A DNA stretch of 64,000 nt, from positions 414,401-478,400 of the forward strand of contig NZ_CP120678.1 in NCBI RefSeq assembly GCF_030273445.1. Direction: 5' to 3'. This DNA comes from Selenobaculum gibii (GTDB lineage Bacteria; Bacillota; Negativicutes; ICN-92133). Position numbers and translations under genes: made by a program. Below the pieces are notes generated by a model. It saw nothing but the letters and a program-made list of their open reading frames with translations. It did no database searches and was not told the origin of the DNA. Positions 22,597 through 55,735 of this stretch are shown here, in pieces (the stretch's first letter is position 1; each line of letters starts with the position of its first letter).

Positions 22597-24477
22597 TTAT
22601 ATGTCTAAGCTTTGTCTGTTTGCTCCGGGGCCGTCGTTTGCAATAGCTACAGCCGCTTGTTTAAATGTTTTCATATCGTTGACCATATGCAAACAGGCAT
22701 CAAGGAGTGTCATGCCGAGGGCTGCTTGGCAGCCTTCATAGAGCGTTGAATCAAGATAAAGATAAGCATTTAGATTTAGAGATTCAATTGCTTCTTTATG
22801 AAGTGGTTCAGGTGAAAGAGAAGCGTTAATTAAGTAATTATTAATTTCCTTATTCATGCTTACAGCAATTCGTGCGGCTAATGCAGTAAGTGGCCCGTCA
22901 AGCATGATTGCACATTTATTTGCAGCGGCAGCGATGATTGCTCCAGTAATAGCCGCTAATTCCACGTTATCTATATTAGTGAATGACTCTAGGGATTTAT
23001 TGGCGAATCTATTTGGCACTTGCTGACCATATGGAGTGAGGTTTAAGCTTTCACCAATTCCAAGAATTCTGCTACCTTTTTTAAATTCTTGATCGGCGAC
23101 TTGCATACCTAATGCTAATGCTTGCCCGCAATTCATTTTACTATTGTCTAGATCAGCAATTGTAAGATTCGCCTTTGTATGTGAAGCAAAGGCGTAAATC
23201 AATGAATTTTTAGGTGTAGAAAATAGAAGTATACTTTTTTTCAAATTCTTTGGTTTAGACATTTCAGTTATACCCGCAAGCTGGACAGCTAATTTTTCAA
23301 GATGTCCAAGACTGCCAAGCGGTTTTGTAAGATTATCAATATGTAATTGGCACGCTTGCATTGCTTCATTATCTAATGAAGCGGCAATATAACGATCAGG
23401 CAATATTTCAGATAACATCTGATCTGGATCAACGATTGTTGTGTTTTCAGGATTAGATTCATGCAGATAGGATTTTATCGTAGCGTCAAGGATTGACATG
23501 GCAAGTGCGGCTCCAGTCGCTTCCCCAAAACGAAAATGCATATCAATATATGCTTTTAATTCTAATATTTCGAGGGCTTTGCTATGTGCAGGCTCAGCTG
23601 ATAGGTGTGAGCCAATTAAGAATTTTTTAGATAGTGGACAAAGACTCGCTGCAATTAAAGCGGCTGCACTTGCATTAAATCCATCGATGACAACAGCAGC
23701 ACGGTTCGCTGCACAACCGAGGATAACCCCTGCCAAGCAACCAAGTTCAAAACCACCAACTTTTTTCAAAACGTCTAGGCCATCATTTGAATTTGGTTTA
23801 TTTACCGCTAATCCTTTTTCTACGACTTGGATTTTTTTTAGTAATCGTTCATCAGAAATATTAGTTCCACGACCAGTTGCCTTTTTGGGAGCTAGCTTAG
23901 CAAAAGCTGCGACAATTGCTGCACTAGAGGTTGTATTGGCGATGCCCATTTCCCCCAAACAAAAACAACGATAGCCTTCAGCAATTTTTTGCGTGGCAAT
24001 TTCAATTCCAATTTCAAGTGAACGAATTGCTTCGCTTTCGGTCATTGCAGGGCCTTTTGTAAAGTTTTTTGTGCCGTAATTGATTTTTCTATCAATAAGT
24101 CCCTCGATTTTTTCCATAGGCGCAGCAATGCCAACATCGACTACGACTAAATCAGCACCACAATGCAAGGCCATTGCGTTAGCACCTGCACCTTTAGCGA
24201 CTAAATAATTACGTGTCATTTGTACTGTCGTTTCAACTGGATAGGCACTTACACCTTCCTCAGCGACGCCATGATCTGCACAAGCGACTACCATACATTT
24301 TTTTGGTACTGACGGGGTAATCTCATTGGTAATACCGACGTATTTTTGTAATATAGTTTCAAGATAACCAAGGCAGCCTTCAGGTGTAATTAAATTATGG
24401 CTAGCCTTTTTTATTTTTGCCATTGCTAAATCATTCAGAGGTGTAACTTTAGCAATTGTACTTTTTAATAAATCCAT
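22597..24477 (-). CDS. Tandem CobT-CobT nucleotide phosphoribosyltransferase, possible fused ArsAB type
   Basis: CobT moves ribose phosphate from nicotinate mononucleotide to the cobalamin lower-ligand base. Here 626 residues hold two CobT-like units. Unit 1 (about 1-350) has VACADHGVAEEGVSAYPVE, LGEMGIANTT and FGEATGAALAM, whose Glu matches the catalytic base region. Unit 2 (about 365-626) opens with the classic LTKPLGSLGHLE yet has lost the DHG loop (STPKNSL) and GEMGxxNT (GIGESLNLT), keeping only YEGCQAALG. One active and one degenerate unit recalls the two-subunit ArsA/ArsB enzyme of Sporomusa, which handles phenolic bases. A plain duplication is the alternative. Own promoter and a leader of about 190 bases. 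Confidence 0.85.
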   Translation of the reverse strand: MDLLKSTIAKVTPLNDLAMAKIKKASHNLITPEGCLGYLETILQKYVGITNEITPSVPKKCMVVACADHGVAEEGVSAYPVETTVQMTRNYLVAKGAGANAMALHCGADLVVVDVGIAAPMEKIEGLIDRKINYGTKNFTKGPAMTESEAIRSLEIGIEIATQKIAEGYRCFCLGEMGIANTTSSAAIVAAFAKLAPKKATGRGTNISDERLLKKIQVVEKGLAVNKPNSNDGLDVLKKVGGFELGCLAGVILGCAANRAAVVIDGFNASAAALIAASLCPLSKKFLIGSHLSAEPAHSKALEILELKAYIDMHFRFGEATGAALAMSILDATIKSYLHESNPENTTIVDPDQMLSEILPDRYIAASLDNEAMQACQLHIDNLTKPLGSLGHLEKLAVQLAGITEMSKPKNLKKSILLFSTPKNSLIYAFASHTKANLTIADLDNSKMNCGQALALGMQVADQEFKKGSRILGIGESLNLTPYGQQVPNRFANKSLESFTNIDNVELAAITGAIIAAAANKCAIMLDGPLTALAARIAVSMNKEINNYLINASLSPEPLHKEAIESLNLNAYLYLDSTLYEGCQAALGMTLLDACLHMVNDMKTFKQAAVAIANDGPGANRQSLDI

Positions 24478-24734: not shown

Positions 24735-24753
24735 GATGAAATTCAAGTTTTTT
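24705..24753 (+). terminator. Terminator/attenuator upstream of gerKA
   Basis: CTTGAATTT (24710-24718) pairs with AAATTCAAG (24739-24747), followed by six T. It lies 71 bases before the gerKA start and overlaps a mini-ORF. The rest of the 346-base gap 24478-24823 holds the CobT promoter and leader. Confidence 0.7.
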
Positions 24754-24823
24754 GCATAAAAATTTGTTAATATTCTGTAATTTGGTCATACTAATTCCAA
24801 GTATCTGGAAGGAAGGTGTTTTT

Positions 24824-26701
24824 GTGGAACAAAACCAAAAAGGTTCTTTATATAAAAAGATATTTGAATATATTCAATATAAACCTAAAACGGAAGAAAC
24901 TACTTTTGTTTTGCCAGAAACGGAAGAAGAACAATGGATTGCATATAACAAAACAAAAGCAAAAGCAAGTGTTTTAGATTGTCTATCGGATGTTACAAAT
25001 GGAATAAAATCTTTATCTGAGGTTATTGAATTAGCGAAAGAAAAATGTGCGTCGGGAAAGTGGACAAAAGAAGATATAGAAATATTAAAAATTCGGTTAG
25101 AAATGTTAGAAATGCGAGCTGATGAATTAGAGCCAATTATTCTTGCCTATGAGCATGGCAATATGGACCGGGGAAGAATTAGTGTCAGCAGTAGTTTGAT
25201 TGAGAACAAAACGACAATAGAAAGACTATACCATTTACCAAAAAATAAAGACATTCAAACTCGCGAATTTGAATTAAAAGGAAAAATCCCCGTTAAAATG
25301 ATGTTAAATTACATTGATGGTATGGTTGATAAGCAATTGTTAACCTTGGCATTATTACAACCATTGATGCTTTTCGAATATGAAAAGGAAGGGTTGATTG
25401 GTGAAACTTTAACTGATAAATTGGTAAATAATCTTATTCCACACTTGCAGCCGCTTAAAATAACGACTTATCAAGATGTGACAAAAAGTATCAATGCTGG
25501 CGATTGTGTTTTATTTATTGAGGGTTCAAAAGAGGCATTGGGAATTGATGTAAAGGGATATAAAAGCCGTGGGATTGGAAAAGCGGAGATTGAGAAAACC
25601 ACACGTGGTTCGCAAGCTGCGTTTGCTGAAGCATTGCGTCCAAATACTGCACTGATTCATGCTATGCTGCAAAGTACGAATCTAGTAACAGAATTATTTC
25701 CTTTAGGAAAAGTAAATGCGAAAAATTGTGCGGTAATGTATGTTGATGGAATCGTAAATGAAACGGCGAAAAAAGAATTAATTCGACGCATCAAAGGGGT
25801 AAAGCGTGATGATGTCTTTGATGCAGGATCGTTTAGTCAAATGATTTCAGATAATAAACTTCAGTTTCCTGAAAATTTATCTACTGAGCGTCCTGATCGT
25901 GTAGTTGCAGCACTTATGCAAGGAAGAATTGCCTTTATGGTAGATGGAGATCCCTTTGCTTATATTGCGCCAGTTAATTTATGGGATTTTTTTCATAATC
26001 CGGAGGATTATGAAATGCGATTACCAGCGGCTATGTTTATGCGTATCTTGCGCTATACGGGTTTACTTTTAGCATTTTTTTTACCAAGTATATATATTGC
26101 GCTAGTATTATTTCATTATGAAGCAATACCAACAGAAATTCTTTTAGCGATATCTGGTTACAGGCAGTTTGTTCCATTTACTTCTGTCTTAGAGTTATTG
26201 ATGATGATTTTTTCCTTTGAATTGATTCGGGAGGCAACGCTACGTGTACCAGGTCAGCTTGGAGGATCTATCGGTATTGTGGGGGCAATTATTCTTGGGC
26301 AGGCGGCAATCTCAGCAAAGTTAGTTAGTCCGCTATTAGTGGTTGTTGTTGCAATTACGGGACTAGCTTCCTATGTCATTCCTGAATATCGATTTGGATT
26401 TGCAGTGAGAATTACGCAATATGCAATGCTCCTTTCAGCTGCGATGATGGGCTTGGTTGGCGTAAGTATTGTACTTCTTTTAATCTTATTAGAAATGGTA
26501 GGATTAAAATCTTTAGGCGTTCCATTTTTATCACCAATCATCCCCAAAACGTCGACAGTTACAGATATTTTACGGGTGCCTAATTCATATGAGAATGATT
26601 TATGGCGTCCAGATGAATTAAATACTGAGCGGGTACAGCGCAAATCAACAGCAAGTGAGTCATGGCGAGAAGAGAAGCCTACACAAAAGGAGGAAGAATA
26701 G
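24824..26701 (+). CDS. gerKA: GerA-type spore germinant receptor A subunit
   Basis: Inner-membrane subunit of a nutrient germinant receptor in dormant spores. 625 residues: hydrophilic N-terminal half (with LPKNKDIQTREF and YIDGMVDKQ), then the GerA core with DGDPFAYIAPVNLWDFFHNPEDYEMR and several membrane segments (about 390-560), and PGQLGGSIGIVGAIILGQAA. GTG at 24824 fits GGAAGG (24811-24816); 24752 is an open-frame alternative without a site. Overlaps the next gene by one base. Which of the GerA, GerB or GerK types it is cannot be settled; the symbol is by operon order. Confidence 0.92.
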   Translation: MEQNQKGSLYKKIFEYIQYKPKTEETTFVLPETEEEQWIAYNKTKAKASVLDCLSDVTNGIKSLSEVIELAKEKCASGKWTKEDIEILKIRLEMLEMRADELEPIILAYEHGNMDRGRISVSSSLIENKTTIERLYHLPKNKDIQTREFELKGKIPVKMMLNYIDGMVDKQLLTLALLQPLMLFEYEKEGLIGETLTDKLVNNLIPHLQPLKITTYQDVTKSINAGDCVLFIEGSKEALGIDVKGYKSRGIGKAEIEKTTRGSQAAFAEALRPNTALIHAMLQSTNLVTELFPLGKVNAKNCAVMYVDGIVNETAKKELIRRIKGVKRDDVFDAGSFSQMISDNKLQFPENLSTERPDRVVAALMQGRIAFMVDGDPFAYIAPVNLWDFFHNPEDYEMRLPAAMFMRILRYTGLLLAFFLPSIYIALVLFHYEAIPTEILLAISGYRQFVPFTSVLELLMMIFSFELIREATLRVPGQLGGSIGIVGAIILGQAAISAKLVSPLLVVVVAITGLASYVIPEYRFGFAVRITQYAMLLSAAMMGLVGVSIVLLLILLEMVGLKSLGVPFLSPIIPKTSTVTDILRVPNSYENDLWRPDELNTERVQRKSTASESWREEKPTQKEEE

Positions 26702-27837
26702 TGAGTTATGGCATTGGAAAAATAAGTGCAGTAGAAGGCATGACCTTAGTAGCAATGTTGATTGTTCCGAGTATTTATCTCACAGAGCCTAGTTTATCTA
26801 TTGGGTTTGTGGGAAACTCAGCTTGGCTGTTGAAAATTTGCAGTGGTTTGCTATTGCTAGGTCTTTTATTAGCAATCTTGAAAATCTATCAAAACTATAT
26901 TGATAAATTTTGTAATGGACGAATGATCACATTTTTTAGTTTTGTACAAGGGGTATTAGGTCGTAGTGGGGGAATGATATTCTTTATTTTATGGGCAGTT
27001 TTGTTTCACCTTTCTACGGTTTTGATGATTAGAGAATTTACAGACCATACATTAATGACAACTTTAAAAACGGGAAATTTAAAATTAGTTTTACTTATTT
27101 TTGCTGTTGCTATTTTTTTTATGATGCGCTATGGGTTAGAGGTAATTTTACGCTGTGCATATCTTTTGTTAGTTGTACGGGCGATTACTTTAATCATTTT
27201 ACTTTTTTTGTTATTTTCCTCTTACGATGTTACGCAATTATTGCCATGGCAAGGCTATGGCATGGGGAGTTTAGCAAAATATTCTTTTCTAGACATTGGT
27301 ACAGGAGCAACCTCGATGGCGATTTTTTTCATTATTCCGCATTTGCAAAATATTGCTACAATGAAAAAAAGTATTTTATATGGAATGGCATACGTAACCT
27401 TTTTTAAGATGATTTTAATTCTCATGATGATTATGACGTTTGGAATTATTGTTTCGCCAGAGCGCGTGTTGCTCTTTTATGAATTGGTTCGGTGTGTGAA
27501 TTTATCGCAATATGTGCAGCGAGTGGACTCAATTTTTATTTTGATGTGGTTGACAGCAGGTTTGATGTCAATTGTAGTAACGCAATATTTATCGGTAATG
27601 ATTTATTGTGAAGCTTTTAAATTAACGGATAGTAAAGCTTTAATGGCGATTGCAATGTTATTGACTACGAGTATAGCGATGTTGCCTGATTCAACAATTA
27701 CCGCATTAACAATGAGTGGATTTTTTATTTATCAATGGTCAACGGCTTTTATGGTGTTTAGCTTTATTATTTTGGGGATTGGGTATTATGTGAAATGTCG
27801 GAGGAACAGCTCATGTGTTGGACAAGGCCTAAGATAA
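26701..27837 (+). CDS. gerKB: Spore germination permease, GerAB/GerKB type
   Basis: B subunit of the germinant receptor, an APC-superfamily-like permease with about ten hydrophobic segments over 378 residues, thought to hold the germinant-binding pocket. It opens with IGKISAVEGMTLV and continues with long runs such as LLLLGLLLAILKI. GTG at 26701 overlaps the gerKA stop (TAGTG) with AGGAGGAAG just upstream, so translation is coupled. Confidence 0.9.
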   Translation: MSYGIGKISAVEGMTLVAMLIVPSIYLTEPSLSIGFVGNSAWLLKICSGLLLLGLLLAILKIYQNYIDKFCNGRMITFFSFVQGVLGRSGGMIFFILWAVLFHLSTVLMIREFTDHTLMTTLKTGNLKLVLLIFAVAIFFMMRYGLEVILRCAYLLLVVRAITLIILLFLLFSSYDVTQLLPWQGYGMGSLAKYSFLDIGTGATSMAIFFIIPHLQNIATMKKSILYGMAYVTFFKMILILMMIMTFGIIVSPERVLLFYELVRCVNLSQYVQRVDSIFILMWLTAGLMSIVVTQYLSVMIYCEAFKLTDSKALMAIAMLLTTSIAMLPDSTITALTMSGFFIYQWSTAFMVFSFIILGIGYYVKCRRNSSCVGQGLR

Positions 27838-29069
27838 TTATTGTAGTAAGTTTATTATTTGTTATTTTTTTATGTAGCGGTTGTATGGGCGGACAAGAGG
27901 TAGATGATTTATCATTTATTTTGACCATTGGAATTGATAAGTCAGATGAACCTGATATGAATATATTTACTTTTCGCATTGCTATGCCTAGATCTTTTAC
28001 GGGAGATTCTGGGGGAGAGAATAAAGATAAAACAAAACTTGTCAGTGTAAAATCGCCTAACATTACAGAAGCAATTCGACAACTTGGGATTGCGTTGAAT
28101 CGTAATCCTGAGTTAAGCCATACCTCTGCTTTATTTATTAGTGAGGAGGTTGCAAAAGAAGGAATTTATCCATATTTGACGATGTTTCTACGTGAACAAG
28201 TATATTTAAATACAATGTCAATTTTAATTATTGAAGGTGAGGCAAAGGAGGCTTTGAAAAAAAATACGGCTCCTTTTGAGCTTTTTCAATATCGATGGAT
28301 AGATAGTTTAAAAAGAGTGCAGAAATTTGCCGCTAGTTCTCTAATTAATGATGTAAATCAATTTTATATGCAGATTAAGGAACCCACACATGCAGTTGCA
28401 ACCGGATATGGAACCATTATTGATAATAGCTTACAAAAGAAATCCCCGATGCCATTACCGCATCAATCCATTCCACAGTATGGAGTGGAGGATTTTCCAA
28501 GAGAAGGCGGGACAGAATTAATTGTTGTTGGCTCAGCTATTTTTCGTGATTGGAAAATGGTTGGTAAGTTAAATATGAGTGAAGCGTTTGGCGCGGTGTT
28601 ATTAAATAAAGGGATACAAACTACATTAACAGTTGAAGATCCATTTGTTGAAGAAAGAAAAATAAGTTTAGGTATAGATGTAAAAAATCCTAAAGTCGAT
28701 GTTGATGTAGTTGATGAGAAAATGAAAATTGATATTAATATTATAGCGAATTGTGAGTTATCAGATGTTGTAACGGATATGGATTATACGAACAAAGAAA
28801 ATCGTCAGATTATTGAGAAAAAAATTAATGAGGCAATAGAAAGTGGTGTTCAGGCCTATTTTAATGCAACACAGCCATTCGGTGCAGATTGTATTGAAAT
28901 TAGCAATCAGTATCGAGCGAAGGTAGGAACATGGCAAGAATGGTCAAGCCATGATTGGCCGAGCTTATATAGGAATGCAGAAGTTCATATTAAGGTGAAT
29001 TCTAAATTAAAGCGCTCTGGTTTATTATGGAGAGAAGTAGATGAAAGAGGAGCAGGAGATAATGTATAA
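27813..29069 (+). CDS. gerKC: Ger(x)C family spore germination lipoprotein
   Basis: C subunit of the receptor, a lipoprotein anchored by its N-terminal cysteine. Signal segment IIIVVSLLFVIFL is followed by lipobox CSGC; then EVDDLSFILTIGID, the common Ger(x)C opening, and RDWKMVGKLNMSEA. ATG at 27813 is preferred to ATG at 27795 because GGAGG lies eight bases upstream. Overlaps gerKB by 25 bases. 418 residues, a little longer than usual. Confidence 0.9.
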   Translation: MCWTRPKIIIVVSLLFVIFLCSGCMGGQEVDDLSFILTIGIDKSDEPDMNIFTFRIAMPRSFTGDSGGENKDKTKLVSVKSPNITEAIRQLGIALNRNPELSHTSALFISEEVAKEGIYPYLTMFLREQVYLNTMSILIIEGEAKEALKKNTAPFELFQYRWIDSLKRVQKFAASSLINDVNQFYMQIKEPTHAVATGYGTIIDNSLQKKSPMPLPHQSIPQYGVEDFPREGGTELIVVGSAIFRDWKMVGKLNMSEAFGAVLLNKGIQTTLTVEDPFVEERKISLGIDVKNPKVDVDVVDEKMKIDINIIANCELSDVVTDMDYTNKENRQIIEKKINEAIESGVQAYFNATQPFGADCIEISNQYRAKVGTWQEWSSHDWPSLYRNAEVHIKVNSKLKRSGLLWREVDERGAGDNV

Positions 29070-44212: not shown

Positions 44213-44938
44213 TTGTTCGAAAAAATAGATGAAAAGCAATTAGAAATAAATCGCTATAGACCGCTGAATCATATACAGTTAAATGAATTAAAAGATTATT
44301 ATAAAATTGGTTTGGTGTATTCATCTAATGCTATCGAAGGCAATACATTAGACATATCTGAGACGAAGGTTGTTCTCGAAGATGGTATTACTATTGGTGG
44401 AAAGCCAATGAAAGATCATCTGGAGGTAATTGGGAGTGGTGCAGCTTTTGATGAGATGATACATATGATTAATGATAAAAAAGAATTAACAGAGCAGTCA
44501 ATAAAGCGATTACATAAAGTATTGTACGCGCCTATCGATATAAAAAATGCTGGTGTTTATAGAAAAAAACAAGTATATATTAGTGGCTCAGAATACAGCG
44601 TAGCAACTGCTAGTGAGATTGCTTTAAAAATGAAAGAGTTTATATTGAAAATGACTGAAATCAAAGATACTATACATCCTGTTGAGTATGCAGCAAGATT
44701 TCATCAGGAATTAGTATATATACATCCATTTATTGATGGGAACGGACGATTATGTAGGACGCTTATGAATTTGATTTTCTTGCAATATGGGTATCCAATC
44801 GTATGTATTTCTCCAATTGTAAAAGTTGATTATATTAGAGCCTTAGAGCAGGGACATAAAAATCCAAATCTATTTATTAAATTTATCGCAGAGCAAGTAA
44901 TAGAAGGTCAAAAAGATTATCTTAGATTGGTAAAGTAA
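44213..44938 (+). CDS. Fic domain protein
   Basis: Fic proteins transfer AMP or a related group to a target protein. 241 residues. The core motif HPFIDGNGR (about 172-180) is complete, with catalytic His. The inhibitory helix motif (S/T)xxxE(G/N) is present N-terminally as SNAIEGN (about 38-44), so this is a self-inhibited class II Fic. TTG start at 44213 with AAGGAGGGG upstream. No antitoxin-like partner gene. Placed between array 1 and the cas genes; its link to CRISPR is unknown. Confidence 0.9.
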   Translation: MFEKIDEKQLEINRYRPLNHIQLNELKDYYKIGLVYSSNAIEGNTLDISETKVVLEDGITIGGKPMKDHLEVIGSGAAFDEMIHMINDKKELTEQSIKRLHKVLYAPIDIKNAGVYRKKQVYISGSEYSVATASEIALKMKEFILKMTEIKDTIHPVEYAARFHQELVYIHPFIDGNGRLCRTLMNLIFLQYGYPIVCISPIVKVDYIRALEQGHKNPNLFIKFIAEQVIEGQKDYLRLVK

Positions 44939-44940
44939 AG

Positions 44941-45000
44941 AACAAAAATCATCAAGTTCTAGCACTATAAAAATGCTAAACCTTGATGATTTTTTTGTTT
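44941..45000 (+). terminator. Intrinsic terminator after the Fic gene
   Basis: AACAAAAATCATCAAG pairs with CTTGATGATTTTTTTGTT around a 25-base loop. Confidence 0.8.
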
Positions 45001-45186
45001 CAAAGATAAAATAGGTATCTCCTTAATGAATTATATAGTATGCAATAGTTAAACAATTTATGTATTATCACATAGGAAAAACAAGGCAAATGTAGAATTT
45101 ATTATTAAATGTTAATTTAAACGATAATTTTGTAATATATCATATCGAAGCGGATAGAAAACAGGTGAGATGAAGGAGGATGAAGT

Positions 45187-45552
45187 ATGAGTTCATGGAA
45201 GTATGAAGTTAAATTACGTCAACTAACCCCGCTTATTCATTTTCAAGCGGAGCAACCTCAGGCAACGTTACGGGCAACAGAGGTAAAACCCAAATTAGAT
45301 AGATTCTTATTATGGTATCTCGCTCCGGAGCGGTTTAGTGGGATACTGTCAGGAAAAGATGAAAAAAAATTATTATTGGAAATTGCTCGTTCAAAAAAAT
45401 GGTTGCTTCCGATGGTACAAGGAGATGGTAGCGCTGCTTTAAATTATAAAATGCAAATTAGTGCTGATGAAAAGGACAAGATTGACTTAGATGGTATAGG
45501 TGCATATTTTTCAGTGGGGCAAGATGATAAAAAGTTAGTAGCTTACCTATAA
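45187..45552 (+). pseudogene. RAMP-family (Cmr1-like) CRISPR gene, truncated by a CRISPR repeat
   Basis: 121 codons. LRQLTPLIHFQ followed by ATLRATEVKPKLDRFLL resembles the N-terminal RAMP strand and the recognition helix of Cmr1-like type III proteins, which are usually over twice this long. The frame ends because it runs into a CRISPR repeat at 45534: the last codons (L-V-A-Y-L) and the stop TAA are repeat sequence. GAAGGAGG precedes the ATG, so it was a real gene. No other type III gene is present, so this is a relic. Family call is tentative; the truncation is plain. Confidence 0.6.
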
Positions 45553-45563
45553 GGAATTGAAAC
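45534..45563 (+). repeat. Solitary CRISPR repeat
   Basis: 30 bases matching array 1's repeat except for positions 1 (G) and 5 (G). It has G at position 1 like array 2 but C at position 9 like array 1, so it is a third variant. No second copy or spacer follows; cas6 starts 146 bases later. Confidence 0.92.
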
Positions 45564-45641
45564 CTATTTTTCCACAGATTGATAGCAATTTTATAAATTG
45601 GTTGTAGAGTTCAAACAAAAATAAAATATTTGTGGAAATAG
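45564..45641. repeat. Inverted repeat directly after the solitary CRISPR repeat
   Basis: CTATTTTTCCACA (45564-45576) and TGTGGAAATAG (45631-45641) are inverses save two extra T, 54 bases apart. It sits in the leader of the cas operon; function unknown. Confidence 0.4.
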
Positions 45642-45708
45642 AAGGATATATTTGTAAATATGTCGAATTTACGTTTTCATAAGATGATTTTATAGGGGCG
45701 TATTTTTT

Positions 45709-46455
45709 ATGAGAATGGTGATTACTTTAAAAGCGGAAAATAGCATTGACTTGCCAATTGACCATAATCATATTATTCAGAGTTGGATTTATAGTTCAAT
45801 TAGTAAAGAACTGGCGACTTTTTTACATGATGAAGGCTTTGTTGTGAATGGGCGGACGTTTAAATTATTTTGTTTTTCTCGTCTTATGGGCAATTTTTCA
45901 TTATTTCCTGCCAGACAGAGGATTCTTTATAGTGGAATGGTTCAGCTTGTGATTACTTCACCGCTGAATTATTTTATAGAAGAATTGGCAAATGGGATGC
46001 TTTTAAGCCCTAGTGTGAGATTGGGTAGTAATGATTTAATTGTGGAACGTGTGGACGTTTATGATGAAGAGATTACACAAGATGAAATTATCGTAAAGAC
46101 TTTGTCACCGATTACTGTGTATTCGACGTTGCTTCGCATGGATGGGCGGAAGTATACTGCCTATTTTGCACCGCGTGACCCGGAATACAATGAGATGATT
46201 ACAAATAACCTTATCAAGAAATGTCAGGCGATTTTAAATTCTTCAAGGGAGTTCCAAGTAGGTGATGTTTTGGTTACACCAATTGGTATGGGGAAAATGA
46301 ATATTGTTCGCTATAAAAATATTATTATTAAAGGCTATTCGGGGCGGTTAAAATTATCTGGTCCGAAAAATTTGTTGCAAACTGCTATTGAATGTGGGCT
46401 AGGCAGTAAAAATTCACAGGGATTTGGTTGTATCGAAATAGCAAGAAGGCATTAA
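45709..46455 (+). CDS. cas6: CRISPR endoribonuclease Cas6
   Basis: Cuts pre-crRNA within repeats to leave the eight-base 5' handle. 248 residues with two RAMP/ferredoxin-like halves; the N-terminal half has LPIDHNHIIQSWIYSS and the C-terminal glycine-rich loop is GLGSKNSQGFGCIE. The His pair in DHNH may belong to the catalytic site, though Cas6 catalytic residues vary. First gene of the operon, ATG at 45709. A strong hairpin overlaps its stop codon. Confidence 0.92.
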   Translation: MRMVITLKAENSIDLPIDHNHIIQSWIYSSISKELATFLHDEGFVVNGRTFKLFCFSRLMGNFSLFPARQRILYSGMVQLVITSPLNYFIEELANGMLLSPSVRLGSNDLIVERVDVYDEEITQDEIIVKTLSPITVYSTLLRMDGRKYTAYFAPRDPEYNEMITNNLIKKCQAILNSSREFQVGDVLVTPIGMGKMNIVRYKNIIIKGYSGRLKLSGPKNLLQTAIECGLGSKNSQGFGCIEIARRH

Positions 46456-46488
46456 TGCATACGTGTGTGCATTAATGCCTTCTTCTGC
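46441..46488 (+). terminator. Hairpin between cas6 and cas8b, likely attenuator
   Basis: Sixteen-base perfect stem, AGAAGGCATTAATGCA at 46444-46459 with its inverse at 46468-46483, eight-base loop. It covers the cas6 stop codon but has no long T run, so it may lower or process the transcript rather than stop it. Confidence 0.65.
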
Positions 46489-46513
46489 AATCTAGTAAAG
46501 GTGGTGGATAATC

Positions 46514-48544
46514 ATGGACATACCAAAATTGTTGAGCAATATGTGTGGTGAGGGTGCTGAAAATTTATTTTCGGCACTCATCAAACCAGCTTCGATTATG
46601 GCAAAAGATCGAAAAAAAGATTTGTTGAATATTTTTATGAATTTTGATTTAGATCAAAAGAAAATCTTTTTTGATGCAGTGCCGTATAGCGGAGATATGG
46701 TTGATGAACAAAAATACCATTATTTCGGTAACAATCCTGCTGCTGCTAAGCAGACATATGTTGTTCGTGATGCGGGGAGTATGCTGAATTTTTGGCTGGG
46801 CAAGTCAAAGGGAATTATGCAAAATCTTTATGAATTTATTGGTGATGGCAAATTAAAAGAGTTACTTAAAGAATGTCAAGAGAGTCAGCTGTTTGATGAA
46901 AAAGGAATTTGTGAAGCAACGATTCAGTTTCGTGAAGCGTTGGGCGAAGTGGAGTTTGAAGTCAAACGTGATAAGGCTGATAAAGGGCTATATATCAACG
47001 GCGATAAAGTCAGTCCGGATAAGTTTATTAATTTTTGCTTAGAAGATGAAAGCAATGGAAAATTTGTATTGGTGATTCCGCAGATTATAAAAGATGGTGA
47101 AACTATTTGCATTTCGCAGGATGAAGGTTATTTAACAGCGATTACTGAATCGTTGCAAGGGGAGAGTAGCGGAAGTATAGCAGTTTGTCATTTGTGTGGG
47201 AAAAGTAAACATGATATTAACACGGTAGAGTATTCGACAAAATTGAGTAAATCGAGTATCGGGAAAGTATTTGTAACGACAACGGTCAATTATAGTCCGC
47301 TGTTTAATAAGAGTAATCATCAGAAAAACTATAGCCTTTGTAAAGCTTGTTATGAAAAGATATTGTTTGGTGAAAAGGCTGTGATGCGGGACTACAAAAT
47401 CCGGATAGCCGGTGAAGATTGCGTGCTATTATTTGCTGGAATAACGGATAAGCTAGAGACAAAATTTTTACCTGCATTAAAAGCTAATATTGATGCCGTA
47501 TTTAATCATAAGGAACTTGATCAAGCAGTCAAAGACTTAATTAACGAATTTGACTGCCAAGGGATGGCGACGTATCTCGGTAAAAAAATTCATTTATATG
47601 AATTTCATATGGTGTTTTATCGGACGGATGGTAAATCAACCAGTGTAGTAAAAACGATTGAAAGTGTATCGCGAATTCGGTTTAAAGAAGTAAATGAGGC
47701 ATTTGAAAAGATTCTTCAAGAGCGATTTGATAAATTTTTAACGTCTTTTTCTTTAGCGAATATTTATCGGATGATTCCTGTCGCGACGAATTCTAAAGGA
47801 GAACAATTAGATATTGGGCGGGTTTTAGATTTTTACAGTGGCATTTTAAAAGGGGAAGCTATTGCGAGAAATGTTATTTTTGATTTTGCAACGGAAGCAT
47901 TAGAAAAGGGGATACGTGAGCTAAATTCAGCAAAATTGCGCAATTATAAAAATTTGCACCGTTTAGAAGCTTTATATGGGAAAGATTACGGCAAAGATTT
48001 TTATAGTGCGGAAATGGTCATGATGTATTTGGCTTTGATTGAGGTATTGCAAGAGTTAAAGATTTTAAATGAGGAGGTAGTTATGATGGAGAAAATAGGT
48101 AGTCCAATGGTACAGTATCCAGAGTATATTCAAGAGATGGAACAGTTTTTAACAGCACATCATTTTAATATGGCACAGAAAAAATTGTTTTACATGGGTG
48201 TATTAATGCATTTGATTGGAAGGGCACAATATAAACAAGACCATAAAACAAAACCAATCCTTGATAAAATAACGTATTCAGGGATGACTGATAAAGAGGT
48301 GCTGGAGTTCTATTTAGAACTTCAGGCAAAAGGGAGACAATATCAAAGTATTTTGTTAAAAAATAAAATTTTAGGTGTTTTTGAACAAATTGAAGGTTGT
48401 GTAACGAGAAACTTGGGAGAAGTCGATAAGAAAAATCAATTAACAGAGAAAGAAAATGTGTTTTTCATTAAAGCGGGGTACAGTTTTTGTGTATTAAATT
48501 ATAAGAATAAAGGGGCGGATAATAATGACAGTAGTGAAGAATAA
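46514..48544 (+). CDS. cas8b: Cascade large subunit Cas8b (Csh1 type)
   Basis: Large subunit of the type I-B interference complex, involved in PAM recognition. 676 residues, normal for Csh1. A zinc-finger-like CHLCGKSKHD at about 237 pairs with CKACYEKI at about 278, the four-cysteine pattern of Cas8b; the rest is divergent. GGTGGTGG lies before the ATG. Overlaps cas7 by 20 bases. Identified by operon position, size and the zinc motif together. Confidence 0.88.
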   Translation: MDIPKLLSNMCGEGAENLFSALIKPASIMAKDRKKDLLNIFMNFDLDQKKIFFDAVPYSGDMVDEQKYHYFGNNPAAAKQTYVVRDAGSMLNFWLGKSKGIMQNLYEFIGDGKLKELLKECQESQLFDEKGICEATIQFREALGEVEFEVKRDKADKGLYINGDKVSPDKFINFCLEDESNGKFVLVIPQIIKDGETICISQDEGYLTAITESLQGESSGSIAVCHLCGKSKHDINTVEYSTKLSKSSIGKVFVTTTVNYSPLFNKSNHQKNYSLCKACYEKILFGEKAVMRDYKIRIAGEDCVLLFAGITDKLETKFLPALKANIDAVFNHKELDQAVKDLINEFDCQGMATYLGKKIHLYEFHMVFYRTDGKSTSVVKTIESVSRIRFKEVNEAFEKILQERFDKFLTSFSLANIYRMIPVATNSKGEQLDIGRVLDFYSGILKGEAIARNVIFDFATEALEKGIRELNSAKLRNYKNLHRLEALYGKDYGKDFYSAEMVMMYLALIEVLQELKILNEEVVMMEKIGSPMVQYPEYIQEMEQFLTAHHFNMAQKKLFYMGVLMHLIGRAQYKQDHKTKPILDKITYSGMTDKEVLEFYLELQAKGRQYQSILLKNKILGVFEQIEGCVTRNLGEVDKKNQLTEKENVFFIKAGYSFCVLNYKNKGADNNDSSEE

Positions 48545-49439
48545 TAGTGATTTCTTATTTATTTTTGATGCGACGAATACGAATCCGAATGGAGACGCGG
48601 ATCAAGAAAACAAACCACGGATGGATAATGAAACAAAAACATTGTTAGTGAGTGATGTTCGCCGGAAACGTGATGTCCGTGATTTTTTAGCGAATAAAGG
48701 GTATGGGATTTTTGTTAATACGTTGAATGATAAAAAAGTGACAATGGACAAGATGTTTGAAGAAGTGATGAAAGATCATGACTTGTCTAAAACATCAACC
48801 GAAGAGGAACAAACAAAATGTATTTTGGAGAATATGATTGATATTCGTTTATTTGGTAGTGCAATGGCGGTGAAAAGTAATATTACGAAGACATTCACTG
48901 GCCCGGTGCAATTAACTTGGGGGTACTCACTTCATCCCGTCGATTTAGTGAAATCAAATTCCATTGTAACGATTATGAATGATGATAATTCGACATTTGG
49001 CAAGATGTATAAAGCGCATTATGCAATGGTTGCGCATAGTGGAACGATAAATAAATTTGCCGCAACGAAAACAGGAGTGACGGAAGAAGATTGTGAAGTA
49101 TTTCGCAGGGCGTTAGTGCAGTCTTTGATGAATAATCTAACGCATAGCAAACAAGGGCAACAGCCGTTACTTTATTTAGAAGTTGTATATCACGAGGATT
49201 TTGATGGATATTTAGGTGATTTACGCAGATTTGTTGAAGCTAAACTCAAGAAAGAATCAGCGATTCGTGGGATAGCAGATATATCCTTGGACTTTGCAAA
49301 TTTAGTGCAAGCGATTGCAGAGTTAAAAGGTAAGGGGTATGTTAAAGAAGTGCGAATTTGGCAGAGTCCATTATTCAAACAGGTGGAAAACTTACCGGAC
49401 GGAGTAAGACTTGATTTATTGAAACCGATTGTTAAATAA
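48525..49439 (+). CDS. cas7: Cascade backbone subunit Cas7 (Csh2 type)
   Basis: Forms the crRNA-binding spine of Cascade. 304 residues. FLFIFDATNTNPNGDAD followed by NKPRMDNET is the Cas7/Csh2 signature; SDVRRKRDVRDFL and GSAMAVKSN-FTGPVQ match it too. AAAGGGG lies upstream of the ATG inside cas8b. Confidence 0.95.
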   Translation: MTVVKNNSDFLFIFDATNTNPNGDADQENKPRMDNETKTLLVSDVRRKRDVRDFLANKGYGIFVNTLNDKKVTMDKMFEEVMKDHDLSKTSTEEEQTKCILENMIDIRLFGSAMAVKSNITKTFTGPVQLTWGYSLHPVDLVKSNSIVTIMNDDNSTFGKMYKAHYAMVAHSGTINKFAATKTGVTEEDCEVFRRALVQSLMNNLTHSKQGQQPLLYLEVVYHEDFDGYLGDLRRFVEAKLKKESAIRGIADISLDFANLVQAIAELKGKGYVKEVRIWQSPLFKQVENLPDGVRLDLLKPIVK

Positions 49440-49452
49440 GGTGGTGAAAGTC

Positions 49453-50220
49453 ATGCAGGCGATTTCCTTTTGCCTTAACGGCAAGATGGCACATTTTAGA
49501 AAATACTATAGCAATTCAACTGCACTTTCACATTTAGTTCCACCTGTGGCGACGATAAAGGGAATCATTGCTGGTTTATTGGGGTATGAACGTGACAGTT
49601 ATTATGAAGAGTTTTCCGATAAACGTTGCAAAGTTGCTTTGTGCGTAAAATCACCGCTGAAGAAAATCACGCAAACAATGAATTTGTTAAAGGTGGAAAG
49701 CTTAAATCATTTAAATGGAGCAGGCTTAAATCGTACGCAAAATCATACAGAGTTTGTCGTGCCGAAAAATCTACAAAGTGAAAATATCTGTTATGAAGTA
49801 ATTTTTTATCATGAAGATAGAAGTGTGATGGAAAAATTAACAGCAATGCTTTGTTTGCCTTCGTCGGCCTATTTGTCGCAAGGAATTAGTGTTGCCTTGG
49901 GAAGTGCACAATGTTTAGGGTGGATTAGTCAGGGCAAAGTAGTGGACTTAGAAAAACGCTTAAGTGATGATGCTGTTATTGCGATTTGTAGTGCAGTTGT
50001 TCTAAACCGAATTGAAAAGATTTGTTTGGAAAAAGAAATCTGCAGCAATTTTTTTAAGGAAGAAACGATTACGGAGTTTGATGAACATCGGTTGATTACG
50101 GAAGGTTCACGTAAAGAGATTTTATTTAACTTGGAAGATACCGCATTGTCATTGATTTTAAAACAAGCTACACCGTATTATGTAATGGATGCAAAAGAGA
50201 ATATTGTATTTTTGGAGTGA
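49453..50220 (+). CDS. cas5: Cascade subunit Cas5 (Cas5h type)
   Basis: Caps the crRNA 5' handle in Cascade. 255 residues; RAMP start with AISFCLNGKMAHFRKYY and the PPVATIKGIIAGLLGYE segment typical of Cas5. ATG at 49453 fits AAGGTGG; an in-frame TTG at 49429 lies inside cas7. Stop overlaps cas3's start. Confidence 0.93.
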   Translation: MQAISFCLNGKMAHFRKYYSNSTALSHLVPPVATIKGIIAGLLGYERDSYYEEFSDKRCKVALCVKSPLKKITQTMNLLKVESLNHLNGAGLNRTQNHTEFVVPKNLQSENICYEVIFYHEDRSVMEKLTAMLCLPSSAYLSQGISVALGSAQCLGWISQGKVVDLEKRLSDDAVIAICSAVVLNRIEKICLEKEICSNFFKEETITEFDEHRLITEGSRKEILFNLEDTALSLILKQATPYYVMDAKENIVFLE

Positions 50221-52553
50221 TTGCGTTGTTGTATGCACATTACGATAAAACTTCTCAAACCGGACAAGCGTTAACAGAGCATCTTGAAGTGGTAGCAAAG
50301 AAGATGGGGGAGAACATTTCCCCACTTCATTTTAAATGTTCGTCCAATGACAGATTAAAGCAACTGTTGTCCCAGACAGGCTACTATCATGATGTCGGTA
50401 AACTCATGAAGAGTTTTCAACGGTATCTTAAAACGGATAAAGGTGGACATGAAAAAGATCATGCATTGATTTCGGCGGGGCTGTTTAGCACAAACTATAA
50501 AGCTAGAGAAATTGACGGCTATTTAGCAATGCTAGCAATCGCTAAACATCATGGCGATTTGAATAATGATATCGCAATGGAGAATAACTTGTTTTCTCAG
50601 CTTACTAATCAGTACGAAGATATTTGTCAGCAAATTGAAGCTTATCCAGAGTATAAGGAGAAATTAAGCACAACTTTTGATTTAGCTGTGTATCAAAAAT
50701 TTATACAAGATAATGTTAGCTATATAAGAAGTAAACGAAATTTATCGATGAATGGTGTAGAATCGTTTTTCTTGCTGCAATATATTTTTTCTAAGCTGAT
50801 TTGGGCAGATAAATTAAATTCTGCTGGATTAGACAAAAAAGAAAGCGTGAATACGACTAAGCTGGCTGATATCGAACGTTATATTCGGGAAAAAAATCAG
50901 CAAGCCATGGCGGTAAATGAAAAGCGGGAAACGATTCGGCGTAGTGTACTAGAGAAAGTGGATGCGTTAACGGAGGAAGAGTTTGGTAAAACGCGGATTT
51001 TTCAATTAACTGCACCGACGGGAACAGGCAAAACCTTGACGAGTATTTGTGCGGGATTAAAGATTATGGAGCGGATGCAAAAGCTTTATCAGTGCCGCGG
51101 ACAAATTATTACAGCATTGCCGTTTATCAATATTTTAGAGCAGACGAAAATAGATTATGAAGCATTTTTTGCTGATGTATTGGTGCATTATAGTGGGGCG
51201 GATTTGAATGCTACAGCGGAAAATAAATCTGAGCATGAGACTGATTTGCAGAAAAAACTGCTGTTAATGTCAGCGTGGGAAAGTCCAGTCGTGATTACTA
51301 CCTTCGTACAATTTTTTGAATCTATTTTAACGGATAAGAATAAGCGATTGATAAAGCTTCACAAATTGGCGGGCAGTGTTGTCATCTTAGATGAGGTGCA
51401 AACGATTCCGTTTTACTATGCACCGCTTTTAGGGGCGGTGATTCAGCATTTGGCGGATTTTTATGGAACTCGGTTTATTTTAATGACCGCAACGCAGCCG
51501 GAAATTGTAACTATGGCAAATCGGTTTTTGCCTAAGGACAATCCTATGCATACCTATGAATTGTTGCCGAGCTACCAAGAGTACTATTCGGAGTTAAAGC
51601 GAACGAAGATTATTCCCGTCTTTGATAAGGTCGAAGATAATGAAGCGCTTGTCGAATTTATCAAAGCGACGAAAGAAGAGGATCAATCCGCATTGGTAGT
51701 GGTCAATACGATTCGGCAGAGTATCGAAGTTTATCAACTGTTAAAGGAAGATTACCAAGTGCTTTACCTATCAACGAATTTAATTCCTGTCGATAGAAAA
51801 GCGGTAATCAAAGAAGCAAAAGCTTTATTAAAGCAGAAAGTGCCGTTTATTTTAGTGTCAACACAAACGATTGAAGCTGGCGTTGATTTAGATTTTGACA
51901 TCGGGTATCGGGATTTAGCACCGCTAGAATCGATTATTCAAGTTGCCGGCAGAATCAATCGGGCTGGTGATAAAGGGGAGTATCTGCCGTTATATGTATT
52001 TGATACAGGGAGTGCAAAATCTGTTTATGACCAGTATCCAAGGCAAGAAACGAGTAAAATGCTAAAAGCATGCGAAAGTATCGGTGAAGATAAATACTTA
52101 TCTTTGATTAAGCAGTATTATCAACGAATTGCTAAATCGGAGCAGCATGAACGGCAGATTTATCGAGCAATGCATGTATTGGAGTATAAAACCGAGGTGA
52201 AGGATTGCCTGGCAATTCGTGATTTTTCGCTGATTGAGAATCAAGATAATGTTAAAACAGTTTTGATTACTAAAACAGCACAAGTACAGGAAAAAGCAGA
52301 AGAATATGCGCAGTTATTAGAAGAAGAACATTTAGATTTTGCACAAAAGGCCAAATTAAAACAACTCCTTACGGAATTGAGTCGCTATACGGTGGATATT
52401 CGCGTGGCGAATTTAGCTAAAAATATACCGTGTAAATTTGCCGATGTACATAGAGTCGAGCTGGATTGGTATGTCGTACAATTGGATGAAGTAAAAAACT
52501 ATTATAATGAGACGGGATTTATGACAGAGAGCCCGCAAGCGTTTGTTTATTGA
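50217..52553 (+). CDS. cas3: Cas3 nuclease-helicase
   Basis: Single-chain Cas3: N-terminal HD nuclease (about 1-230) with H in LTEHLEVV, YYHDVGKLM and KHHGDL, then superfamily 2 helicase with Walker A TAPTGTGKTLT, DEVQ box LDEVQTIPF, MTATQPE, and motif VI GRINRAGD. 778 residues. It unwinds and degrades DNA bound by Cascade. The GTG at 50217 overlaps the cas5 stop; TTG at 50226 is a second possibility eight bases after GGAG. Confidence 0.95.
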   Translation: MIALLYAHYDKTSQTGQALTEHLEVVAKKMGENISPLHFKCSSNDRLKQLLSQTGYYHDVGKLMKSFQRYLKTDKGGHEKDHALISAGLFSTNYKAREIDGYLAMLAIAKHHGDLNNDIAMENNLFSQLTNQYEDICQQIEAYPEYKEKLSTTFDLAVYQKFIQDNVSYIRSKRNLSMNGVESFFLLQYIFSKLIWADKLNSAGLDKKESVNTTKLADIERYIREKNQQAMAVNEKRETIRRSVLEKVDALTEEEFGKTRIFQLTAPTGTGKTLTSICAGLKIMERMQKLYQCRGQIITALPFINILEQTKIDYEAFFADVLVHYSGADLNATAENKSEHETDLQKKLLLMSAWESPVVITTFVQFFESILTDKNKRLIKLHKLAGSVVILDEVQTIPFYYAPLLGAVIQHLADFYGTRFILMTATQPEIVTMANRFLPKDNPMHTYELLPSYQEYYSELKRTKIIPVFDKVEDNEALVEFIKATKEEDQSALVVVNTIRQSIEVYQLLKEDYQVLYLSTNLIPVDRKAVIKEAKALLKQKVPFILVSTQTIEAGVDLDFDIGYRDLAPLESIIQVAGRINRAGDKGEYLPLYVFDTGSAKSVYDQYPRQETSKMLKACESIGEDKYLSLIKQYYQRIAKSEQHERQIYRAMHVLEYKTEVKDCLAIRDFSLIENQDNVKTVLITKTAQVQEKAEEYAQLLEEEHLDFAQKAKLKQLLTELSRYTVDIRVANLAKNIPCKFADVHRVELDWYVVQLDEVKNYYNETGFMTESPQAFVY

Positions 52554-52554
52554 T

Positions 52555-52595
52555 AAAAATCCCGATGGTTGCTAAAAACCGTCGGGATTTTTTAT
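52555..52595 (+). terminator. Hairpin between cas3 and cas4
   Basis: AAAAATCCCGATGGTT pairs with AACCGTCGGGATTTTTT around a short loop; T run present. It separates interference genes from adaptation genes. Confidence 0.85.
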
Positions 52596-52610
52596 CGGGG
52601 AGGGATAGGA

Positions 52611-53108
52611 ATGGACGTTAAAGTAAATGGAACCTTGATTTGGTATTACTATATTTGCAAGCGTGAAGTTTGGCTTATGGGGCATCAAATTGTGCCAGAT
52701 CAAGAAAATGATAATGTGTTGATTGGTAAAAGTATCGCTGAATATTCGTATGCCCGTGAGAAAAAAGAAATTGTTGTTGATAACATTAAAATTGACGTTT
52801 TGGAACTAGCTGATGGGAAATTTTGCATTAGTGAAGTAAAGAAAAGCTCACGTTATAAGCAAAGTGCCAGGATGCAATTGGCATTTTACATGAGTAAATT
52901 GAAGGAACGTGGCATAGAGGCGAAAGGCGAATTAAGATTTCCTAAAGAGAAAATTCGGGAAGAAGTTGTCCTCGATGCACAAACAGAAGCAGAACTATTA
53001 AAAATAATAGAAGATATTTCAGTCATCTTAAATGAAGAAAAACCATTGCCGCCGGAAAAACAGAAGTTTTGCCGCAATTGTGCATATGCAGAATTTTGTT
53101 GGTGCTAA
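52611..53108 (+). CDS. cas4: Cas4 exonuclease
   Basis: RecB-like iron-sulphur nuclease that trims prespacers. 165 residues. First cluster cysteine is in YYICKREVWL, the last three in CRNCAYAEFCWC; the nuclease core shows Asp in DVLELADG, ISEVKKSS (E-x-K) and QLAFYMSKL (QxxxY). ATG at 52611 follows GGGAGGG; the upstream in-frame extension overlaps the terminator. Confidence 0.94.
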   Translation: MDVKVNGTLIWYYYICKREVWLMGHQIVPDQENDNVLIGKSIAEYSYAREKKEIVVDNIKIDVLELADGKFCISEVKKSSRYKQSARMQLAFYMSKLKERGIEAKGELRFPKEKIREEVVLDAQTEAELLKIIEDISVILNEEKPLPPEKQKFCRNCAYAEFCWC

Positions 53109-53118
53109 AGGGGGATAA

Positions 53119-54114
53119 ATGATGAAAAAGACACTATACTTTTTCTCAGATGGGGTCTTGCAACGTAAAGATAATACGATATTTTTTGAAACGGCGGAGG
53201 GCAGAAGGTTTTTGCCGGTTGAAGATGTTGGCGAAATTATGGTATTTGGAGAAGTAAATTTTAATAAAGCGCTTGTGGAATTACTATCGCAAAAAGAAAT
53301 TATTTTGCACTACTTTAATTATTATGGCTATTATATGGGAAGTTTTTATCCGCGCGAGCATTTGAATTCAGGGTATACGATTTTAAAGCAGGCTGAGTTT
53401 TATATGGATGAAGCGAAACGATTAGCATTAGCAAAATTGTTTGTAAGTGGGGCGGCGAAAAACATTCGGCAGATTCTAAAATATTATTTGAATCGTGGAC
53501 GCGATTTAACGGAGATTTTAGAAACAGTTGGGAAGTTATTTCCGAGTATTGAAAGTTCAGAAACGATTCCGGAATTAATGGCGATAGAAGGGAATATTCG
53601 TGAAACATATTATAAGGCGTTTGATACGATTATCGATGATAAAGATTTTGTATTTCAGGAGCGAACTCGCCGACCTCCGAAGAATTATTTGAATACATTA
53701 ATTAGTTTTGGCAATACATTAGCATATACTGTTTGTTTAAGTGAAATTTATAAAACTCATTTAGATCCACGTATAGGATATTTACATAGTACGAATTTTC
53801 GTAGATTTTCACTTAACTTAGATGTTTCGGAAATTTTTAAGCCTATTTTAGTAGATAGAATTATCTTTAGTTGTATTGCTAAAAAGATGATTACCAAGAA
53901 AGATTTTGTCAGTGATACCGAAGGGATTATTTTAAAAGAGAAAGGCAAGAAATGTTTTATTGAAAATTGGGAAGAAAAATTGAAAACGACATTCCAACAT
54001 CGAGAAATTGGCAAATCTGTATCATATCGTCGCTTGATAAGGTTGGAATTATACAAAATTGAAAAGCACATTATGGGCGAAAAAACATATGAACCATTTA
54101 TAGCTAAGTGGTAG
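53119..54114 (+). CDS. cas1: Cas1 integrase, I-B type
   Basis: Integrates new spacers with Cas2. 331 residues. LYFFSDGVLQRKDNTIFF opens the beta domain; the metal site residues lie in AIEGNIRETYY (Glu), LHSTNFRRFSLNLD (His, then Asp within DVSEIFKP). ATG at 53119 or 53122, after AAAGGGGG. Confidence 0.95.
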   Translation: MMKKTLYFFSDGVLQRKDNTIFFETAEGRRFLPVEDVGEIMVFGEVNFNKALVELLSQKEIILHYFNYYGYYMGSFYPREHLNSGYTILKQAEFYMDEAKRLALAKLFVSGAAKNIRQILKYYLNRGRDLTEILETVGKLFPSIESSETIPELMAIEGNIRETYYKAFDTIIDDKDFVFQERTRRPPKNYLNTLISFGNTLAYTVCLSEIYKTHLDPRIGYLHSTNFRRFSLNLDVSEIFKPILVDRIIFSCIAKKMITKKDFVSDTEGIILKEKGKKCFIENWEEKLKTTFQHREIGKSVSYRRLIRLELYKIEKHIMGEKTYEPFIAKW

Positions 54115-54122
54115 TAGAGGTG

Positions 54123-54389
54123 ATGATTTTGTTTGTGATACTAGTTTATGATATTCACGTAAAACGAGTGGCAAAAGTATTAAAAAAATGTCGTCAATAT
54201 CTTAATTGGGTACAAAACTCAGTCTTTGAAGGAGAAATCTCCGATGGCAATTATAAAAAATTGATGATAGAATTGAATCATATTATAAAAGAGCAAGATT
54301 CGGTTATTATTTATAATATGAGGACAACAAGATATTACTCCAGAGCCATATTAGGTGTAGAAAGGTGCGAAACGGGTAATATATTGTAA
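54123..54389 (+). CDS. cas2: Cas2
   Basis: 88-residue partner of Cas1. FVILVYDIHVKRVAKVLKKC with the conserved Asp, RQYLNWVQNSVFEGEIS and VIIYNMRT fit Cas2. ATG at 54123 preferred (AGAGGTG upstream); GTG at 54108 is in frame but lies inside cas1. Ends 34 bases before the hairpin of leader 2. Confidence 0.95.
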   Translation: MILFVILVYDIHVKRVAKVLKKCRQYLNWVQNSVFEGEISDGNYKKLMIELNHIIKEQDSVIIYNMRTTRYYSRAILGVERCETGNIL

Positions 54390-54422
54390 CGTAATGAATA
54401 AAAATTAAAAAAGTATGCAAGA

Positions 54423-54477
54423 AAAAAGTCGTCGACCATAGATAGTGTAAAAACACCTAGGGGTCGACGACTTTTTG
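54423..54477 (+). terminator. Long hairpin upstream of CRISPR leader 2
   Basis: AAAAAGTCGTCGACC (54423-54437) and its inverse (54462-54476), with TAGTGTAAAAA in the loop as in the copy at 42639. It also ends the cas operon. Confidence 0.85.
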
Positions 54478-54583
54478 TATGAGATTTTTTGATTGAAATA
54501 AAATTAAAAATAAAATTTCGCCAGAAAAAGTTGATTTTGCATAAATATTAGTGATTTTAGTAGAATTTTAATGTATAATATGG
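54478..54583 (+). promoter_or_regulatory. CRISPR leader 2 with pre-crRNA promoter
   Basis: 106 bases, AT-rich. TGATTTTA (54552-54559), 14 bases, TATAAT (54574-54579), then four bases to the first repeat: the same layout as leader 1 although the rest is dissimilar. Confidence 0.65.
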
Positions 54584-55627
54584 GTTATTAGATTACCTAT
54601 AAGGAATTGAAACTCCGATACTTTCCATCGCCGCATGGAGTTACAATTAGTTATTAGATTACCTATAAGGAATTGAAACGCTTCTGCTTGTGCTTTCGTA
54701 TAAACCTCTTTTTTCTCTGGTTATTAGATTACCTATAAGGAATTGAAACTTTCGAGATTGGCGGATGCTATCAAAATTGCCCCGGAGTTATTAGATTACC
54801 TATAAGGAATTGAAACGAAGGCTCAAGCGATCTGGACTTGATAAGGTTGTTCAGTTATTAGATTACCTATAAGGAATTGAAACCATCTTGCAACGCCCTA
54901 ATGAATCCAGATGCCGTATTTGTTATTAGATTACCTATAAGGAATTGAAACCAACTATGAAGCCTTAGGAATCAAGCCATACGTACAAACGTTATTAGAT
55001 TACCTATAAGGAATTGAAACACCTCACTCATGACTACATCACCCTGCGCCCCTACAGCAGTTATTAGATTACCTATAAGGAATTGAAACTTTATTAGTTC
55101 ACCCTATTGACATGTAGTACATATTGGTTATTAGATTACCTATAAGGAATTGAAACAGCGTTTCAAGTTGCTTGTCACGTTCTTTTACTTGTTCGTTATT
55201 AGATTACCTATAAGGAATTGAAACCATTTACAGACAACCAGAGAAGGCTTCACAAAGAGTTATTAGATTACCTATAAGGAATTGAAACTATGCATTAGGA
55301 ACCGTTTTATCGTACGCTGGCCGAGGTTATTAGATTACCTATAAGGAATTGAAACTCCCCATCATATCATTAATATAAAAAATTGTTCTTTCGTTATTAG
55401 ATTACCTATAAGGAATTGAAACAAGCGAGAATACAACTTGCTCCGGAAAGCTTTACTACCGTTATTAGATTACCTATAAGGAATTGAAACCTTGCCAAAG
55501 GGAATCACCCCTTCCTTTTGTTCATTGCCGTTATTAGATTACCTATAAGGAATTGAAACATTGGCTTGTCATTACAGATGTAGCAGCCCCCACAGCAGTT
55601 ATTAGATTACCTATAAGGATATTGTGA
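54584..55627 (+). CRISPR. CRISPR array 2, 16 repeats and 15 spacers
   Basis: 30-base repeat starting GTTATTAGATT and ending AAGGAATTGAAAC; differs from array 1 at positions 1, 5 and 9 only. Repeats start at 54584, 54650, 54720, 54787, 54854, 54922, 54991, 55060, 55127, 55195, 55259, 55326, 55393, 55461, 55530 and 55598. Spacers are 34-40 bases, all different. The final repeat is broken after 22-23 matching bases (AAGGATATTGTGA), showing it is the leader-distal end. Same orientation as array 1 and the cas operon. Confidence 0.98.
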
Positions 55628-55735
55628 TGAATAGGTGCGACGTTAATCATGATCGTGAAGGAGAGTTAGCAGGATTTTTGTCGCTTTAACTCGAATTTTA
55701 ACATAATAGTATATTTACAATAGTAGGAGTCGAAA

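Follow-up and report, generated by a model that had tools for sequence, protein, structure and literature searches.

It was found that the window, by which I mean the whole 64,000-nucleotide stretch of Selenobaculum gibii DNA analysed here, contains a fused arsA-arsB gene (22597..24477, minus strand); the genome has no other gene of the CobT family. The identity of the two halves, their fusion, the reciprocal loss of motifs, the recurrence of this architecture and the purifying selection that acts on either half in relatives are established at the level of sequence comparison. The product is quite probably a single-chain ArsAB in which an A catalytic core works together with a B lid, most likely activating p-cresol or phenol for the lower ligand of a cobamide.

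The gene is one uninterrupted frame of 626 amino acids with an ATG start. Pfam DBI_PRT matches three stretches of the protein, namely unit 1 at 1.9e-113 and the two ends of unit 2 at 5.2e-12 and 1.8e-26, and the presence of two CobT-family units in a single protein, as proposed in a sequence-only reading, was thus borne out. The same Pfam search found no CobT-family match elsewhere in the 2.68 Mb genome. An AlphaFold2 model based on 23 homologues has a pLDDT of 89.9 and a pTM of 0.92, the latter being a value for the whole chain and not for a superposition of the halves on 4hdk A+B. The linker between the halves (residues 339-366; 23380..23463, minus strand) was modelled with lower confidence (pLDDT 65-75 at residues 341-360). 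Foldseek ranks ArsAB chains first (4hds_A, TMt 0.97) and CobT next (about 0.93-0.95); each match spans about 340 columns, and the TMt of 0.97 to 4hds_A is the score of unit 1, which has the ArsA/ArsB (CobT) fold. ArsAB has been defined by two separate polypeptides from tandem genes (PMC6461909). Because the window has a single frame instead, the 626-aa chain is a variant of ArsAB rather than a plain member.

Unit 1 (residues 1-338; 23464..24477, minus strand) is an ArsA-type catalytic half as judged by phmmer, Foldseek and the tree, and unit 2 (residues 367-626; 22600..23379, minus strand) is an eroded, non-catalytic ArsB-type half as judged by an ArsB HMM (313 bits), the tree and motif loss. 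In a phmmer search of PDB sequences, residues 1-336 matched Sporomusa ovata ArsA (4hdk_A) with 399.9 bits, and residues 367-422 and 585-626 matched S. ovata ArsB. The aligned identity is 54.9% between unit 1 and S. ovata ArsA and 39.0% between unit 2 and S. ovata ArsB, above the crossed values of 37.3/27.2%, and the window's own two halves are 27.8% identical to each other. In a joint ML tree of 35 rows, the ArsA rows lie on one side of a branch with an SH-aLRT of 94, and the B half of the window lies within a B-only set of 12 (100*). The two halves did not branch together; unit 1 went with ArsA and unit 2 fell inside ArsB. The fused ArsAB identity suggested earlier is supported alike by the PDB sequence matches, the half-by-half identities, the joint tree and the structural model.

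The motifs ADHGV (as part of CADHGV), GEMGIANTT and FGEATGAALA, which had been noticed in unit 1, are all present within residues ~1-338. The DHG motif of the catalytic core (D68-G70; 24268..24276, minus strand) occurs in ArsA whether separate (34/34) or fused (28/28), and in 9/9 CobTs. E176 of GEMGIANTT (residues 175-183; 23929..23955, minus strand) is equivalent to E174 of SeCobT, and E319 (23521..23523, minus strand) is equivalent to E317; these SeCobT residues are the ribose contact and the general base, respectively (PMC9561151). With DHG, GEMG-NTT and the E317 equivalent, unit 1 has the intact NaMN/base site of ArsA (7/7 core residues). The Y/M/M pocket triad, which permits phenol in SeCobT as Y80/M88/M175 (PDB titles 4kqj/4kqk), is also present in unit 1. 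It was dropped as a phenol marker, since most of the CobTs compared have it too and it does not discriminate.

Unit 2 had been said to keep DNLTKPLGSLGHLE and to lack DHG and GEMG, and this is the case, with GIGESLN in the place of GEMG-NTT. The N-terminal small-domain motif DNLTKPLGSLGHLE (residues 381-394; 23296..23337, minus strand) is found in every ArsB half tabulated, and the D, K, P and E of this type of motif are shared by separate (34/34) and fused (28/28) ArsBs alike. The C-terminal ArsB tail NDMKTFKQAAVAIANDGPGANRQ (residues 600-622; 22612..22680, minus strand) matches 4hdk_B, and its M/T/F residues are conserved in 32/34 separate and 28/28 fused proteins. The ArsB tail shared with unit 2 can be written as HMxNDMKTFxxAxVAxAxDGPGAxRQSxDx. 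With DNLTKP and the NDMKTF..DGPG tail, unit 2 has the features of a non-catalytic ArsB-type partner.

Two sets of seven residues were scored to follow the loss of motifs. The core set consists of D, H and G of DHG together with the positions of E174, N, T and E317; the small-domain set consists of D, K, P and E of the N-terminal motif together with M, T and F of the tail. All nine CobTs have 7/7 core and 7/7 small-domain residues. The A half of the window has 7 core and 2 small-domain residues and the B half has 3 and 7, so that neither is a canonical CobT, a chain of ~350 aa with both motif sets together. Across 114 unique A/B loci, the mean A core is 7.0 and the mean B small domain is 6.9-7.0, and the A small domain and the B core fall together from 7 to 0. 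The Spearman coefficient between these two is 0.80 for 61 separate pairs and 0.81 for all, with kinship not removed. A phylogenetic test of the reciprocal decay gave no significance, there being too few independent pairs, and the correlated decay may largely be due to shared ancestry.

Some pairs, for example those at L010, L011 and L015, still have full motif sets in both subunits, and an MxTF-type tail, searched by pattern, remains in just 13/56 separate ArsAs. Since no fused chain exceeds 4 in the A small domain or 3 in the B core, these results suggest that the asymmetry came before fusion. In some loci, for example L026, L097 and L158, the B protein is unfused yet short (248-286 aa), and thus erosion does not require fusion. 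In family f2, six loci (L023, L025, L026, L027, L031 and L033) have an ArsA-like gene followed by a separate ArsB-like gene of ~245-270 aa, another view of B erosion without fusion, and some genomes of genus g2 have no CobT-family match. Two fused chains, L174 (477 aa) and L175 (469 aa), have a B part of ~120 aa that consists of the DNLTKP helix and the LHMLNDMKTFAEA.V..ANDGPGA tail, the core between them being absent. L183 and L184 (from genomes G218 and G220) are CobT-family frames of ~395 aa whose C-terminal ~100 aa resembles a last ArsB remnant; the K of the KP motif is lost and the A half is shortened at its N-terminus. By eye, their sequences look like a later stage of erosion than L174/L175. 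Among close fused pairs, dN/dS is about 0.02-0.14 for the A halves and 0.06-0.22 for the B halves; the value for the B part of L174/L175 is 0.12, with saturated dS.

Is the fused form common? The search took in 381 genomes from the same class, and 58 genomes were used in a follow-up. Of the 381, about 95 (a hand count of listed rows) encode a fused ArsAB, 84 of them belonging to family f20. Both halves lie in one long frame, mostly of 560-850 aa, in nine families including f20. Some of these frames extend into upstream read-through, and in a few a stop lies inside the matched region. Family f20 is presumably Selenomonadaceae, and the fused carriers would then be mostly Selenomonadaceae-like. 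Among the best 80 genome matches, from which the names were taken, the carriers include Schwartzia succinivorans, Mitsuokella multacida, Propionispira raffinosivorans and P. arboris, and the fused form is also present in Megamonas MAGs and many rumen MAGs. In Sporomusa, Pelosinus, Anaerospora, Veillonella and Dialister the two genes have stayed separate. In a tree of ArsA and CobT with 66 rows, the starred branches force at least six changes between the fused and separate states, and therefore fusion (or fission) occurred repeatedly. The window is grouped with other fused chains at a support of only 85/82, with S. ovata and V. parvula, the two known producers of phenolyl cobamides, bracketing it.

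The arsAB gene stands alone, flanked by a gene for an FTCD_C protein and an operon of the spore-germination type. The latter, a gerA/gerB/gerC-type operon at 24752-29069 of the window, lies beside the arsAB gene. A cob operon lies elsewhere in the 2.68 Mb genome (L204), with cbiD, cbiC-, cbiA-, cobU, cbiP, cbiB, cobS, cobD and cobC-type genes by NCBIfam and further cbi-type genes read from the sequence; cobT is absent from it. No Rfam match for a cobalamin riboswitch was found within the window, and a scan for promoters and terminators gave matches no more frequent than in shuffles. Genome-wide there are 14 cobalamin riboswitch matches, four of them within 6.5 kb at G000:C1:721787-728211. As a separate observation, the window has a CRISPR array of 16 repeats from 54584 to about 55620, the final repeat being degenerate, near cas genes (44900-55650: cas6, cas8-, cas7- and cas5-like genes, cas3, cas4 and cas1) that appear by eye to be of type I-B. 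A lone repeat at 45534-45563, about 9 kb off the array, overlaps the end of the ORF at 45187-45552, which is short and could be a cas-type gene in truncated form.

Judging from kinship and genome content, the substrate would be phenolic, and this genome is likely to support the production of phenolyl cobamides. The genome encodes both ThiH and HydG, lyases that set p-cresol free from tyrosine. Its one member of the ThiC family is scored as ThiC, under the BzaB cut-off, and BluB had no match over the cut-off, so that the searches for these two families found no benzimidazole synthesis gene in the genome. The same architecture could instead serve benzimidazole or adenine, obtained from the environment or metabolism, as in the general function of CobT. 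This is unlikely, but it has some weight: NCBIfam names the protein cobT (TIGR03160, 483.8 bits), the crystal 4hdr has DMB bound to ArsAB, and the pocket triad is common to CobTs. However, the kinship in the joint tree is with ArsA/ArsB and not with CobT, the genome is without detected benzimidazole synthesis genes, p-cresol can come from ThiH and HydG, and known phenolyl producers bracket the window on the ArsA tree, which together favour p-cresol or phenol.

How might the two halves work? The 626-aa chain would be a nicotinate-mononucleotide:base phosphoribosyltransferase with the whole catalytic core carried by unit 1. Unit 2 would be a pseudoenzyme that supplies a small N-plus-C-terminal domain, composed of the DNLTKP..LE helix and the MKTF..DGPG tail. 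In Salmonella enterica CobT, both chains build the base pocket (PMC9561151). The small domain of unit 2 would complete the base pocket of unit 1 like the partner subunit in the CobT dimer, and the fusion would convert a trans-composite site into a cis site. A symmetric dimer has two sites, each made from the core of one chain and the pocket part of the other; if one site were abandoned, the core of one chain and the pocket part of the other would both be freed. Since the parts freed in this way are complementary, the reciprocal loss fits an A core with a B lid, and it is because of the complementary retention and loss that the DNLTKP and tail elements may be regarded as the pocket part lining the A active site.

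It is rather improbable that unit 2 is a mere structural scaffold, replacing the dimer partner for stability with no contribution to the active site, even though most of its own catalytic residues are gone and enzymes of the CobT type form tight dimers (PMC9561151). A scaffold does not readily account for the retention of two short elements and not of the large domain, even in B remnants of ~120 aa, nor for the tendency of ArsA to lose these elements where the ArsB core is lost; a shared composite site is preferred. For practical purposes, the joint tree rules out a recent tandem CobT duplication with in-frame decay of one copy into a functionless passenger: CobT homologues do make up both halves of one frame, but they sit in separate old groups with ArsA and ArsB, are just 28% identical to each other, and have relatives whose B halves are under purifying selection. 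A joining of two neighbouring genes by sequencing or assembly error is hardly credible, although many relatives have arsA and arsB side by side or overlapping, because the one-frame architecture is seen in about 95 genomes and recurs among many that were assembled independently.

No fused ArsAB is described in the open literature searched (subscription papers were outside its scope), and by that literature the sequences appear to represent a previously undescribed form of a known enzyme. In a genome survey, arsAB was called only for two adjacent cobT genes, in 27 species (PMC6461909), and fused genes escape such a rule because they are not two adjacent genes. It is the cobT model that they match instead. 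About 95 of the 381 genomes searched nevertheless carry them, as do rumen MAGs, and past counts of these genes have probably overlooked many producers of phenolyl cobamides. S. ovata and V. parvula are the only named producers, although a share of 20-34% has been reported for phenolyl cobamides in the bovine rumen (PMC8123684). A wider proposal, which I consider evenly balanced, is that Selenomonadaceae and their relatives make phenolyl cobamides mainly with the single-chain form, that this form goes back to at least six independent fusions, and that its natural deletions show ArsB to contribute no more than a two-element lid to one composite active site; rumen members would in that case be a major source of the phenolyl cobamides found in the rumen. 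The graded series of decay offers a direct, testable map of the role of a pseudoenzyme subunit.

Among known systems, S. ovata ArsAB (PDB 4hdk, 4hdm, 4hdn, 4hdr and 4hds), which also activates DMB (PMC8123684), is alike in its ArsA-type and ArsB-type parts by sequence and tree and in the fold of unit 1, and in both cases the full catalytic set is confined to A. It has two chains, whereas the window has one chain of 626 aa, with a B half ~90 residues shorter than S. ovata ArsB in which the DHG, NTT and GRGTG regions are gone. V. parvula, a known producer of p-cresolyl cobamide, has A and B orthologues of the two halves, and its A protein belongs to the group that is sister to the window's clade; in contrast, its genes are two in tandem and its B protein has 367 aa. 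CobT, a homodimer of the SeCobT type, shares with the window protein the fold, the catalytic residues of unit 1 and presumably the reaction chemistry, but it is symmetric and has the core and the small-domain motifs on the same chain; in the window protein these are divided between units 1 and 2. BluB/CobT2 of Propionibacterium freudenreichii (PMC4657239) is likewise a fusion protein with an enzyme that activates the lower ligand; it joins ligand synthesis to activation, whereas the protein of the window joins two CobT-family halves.
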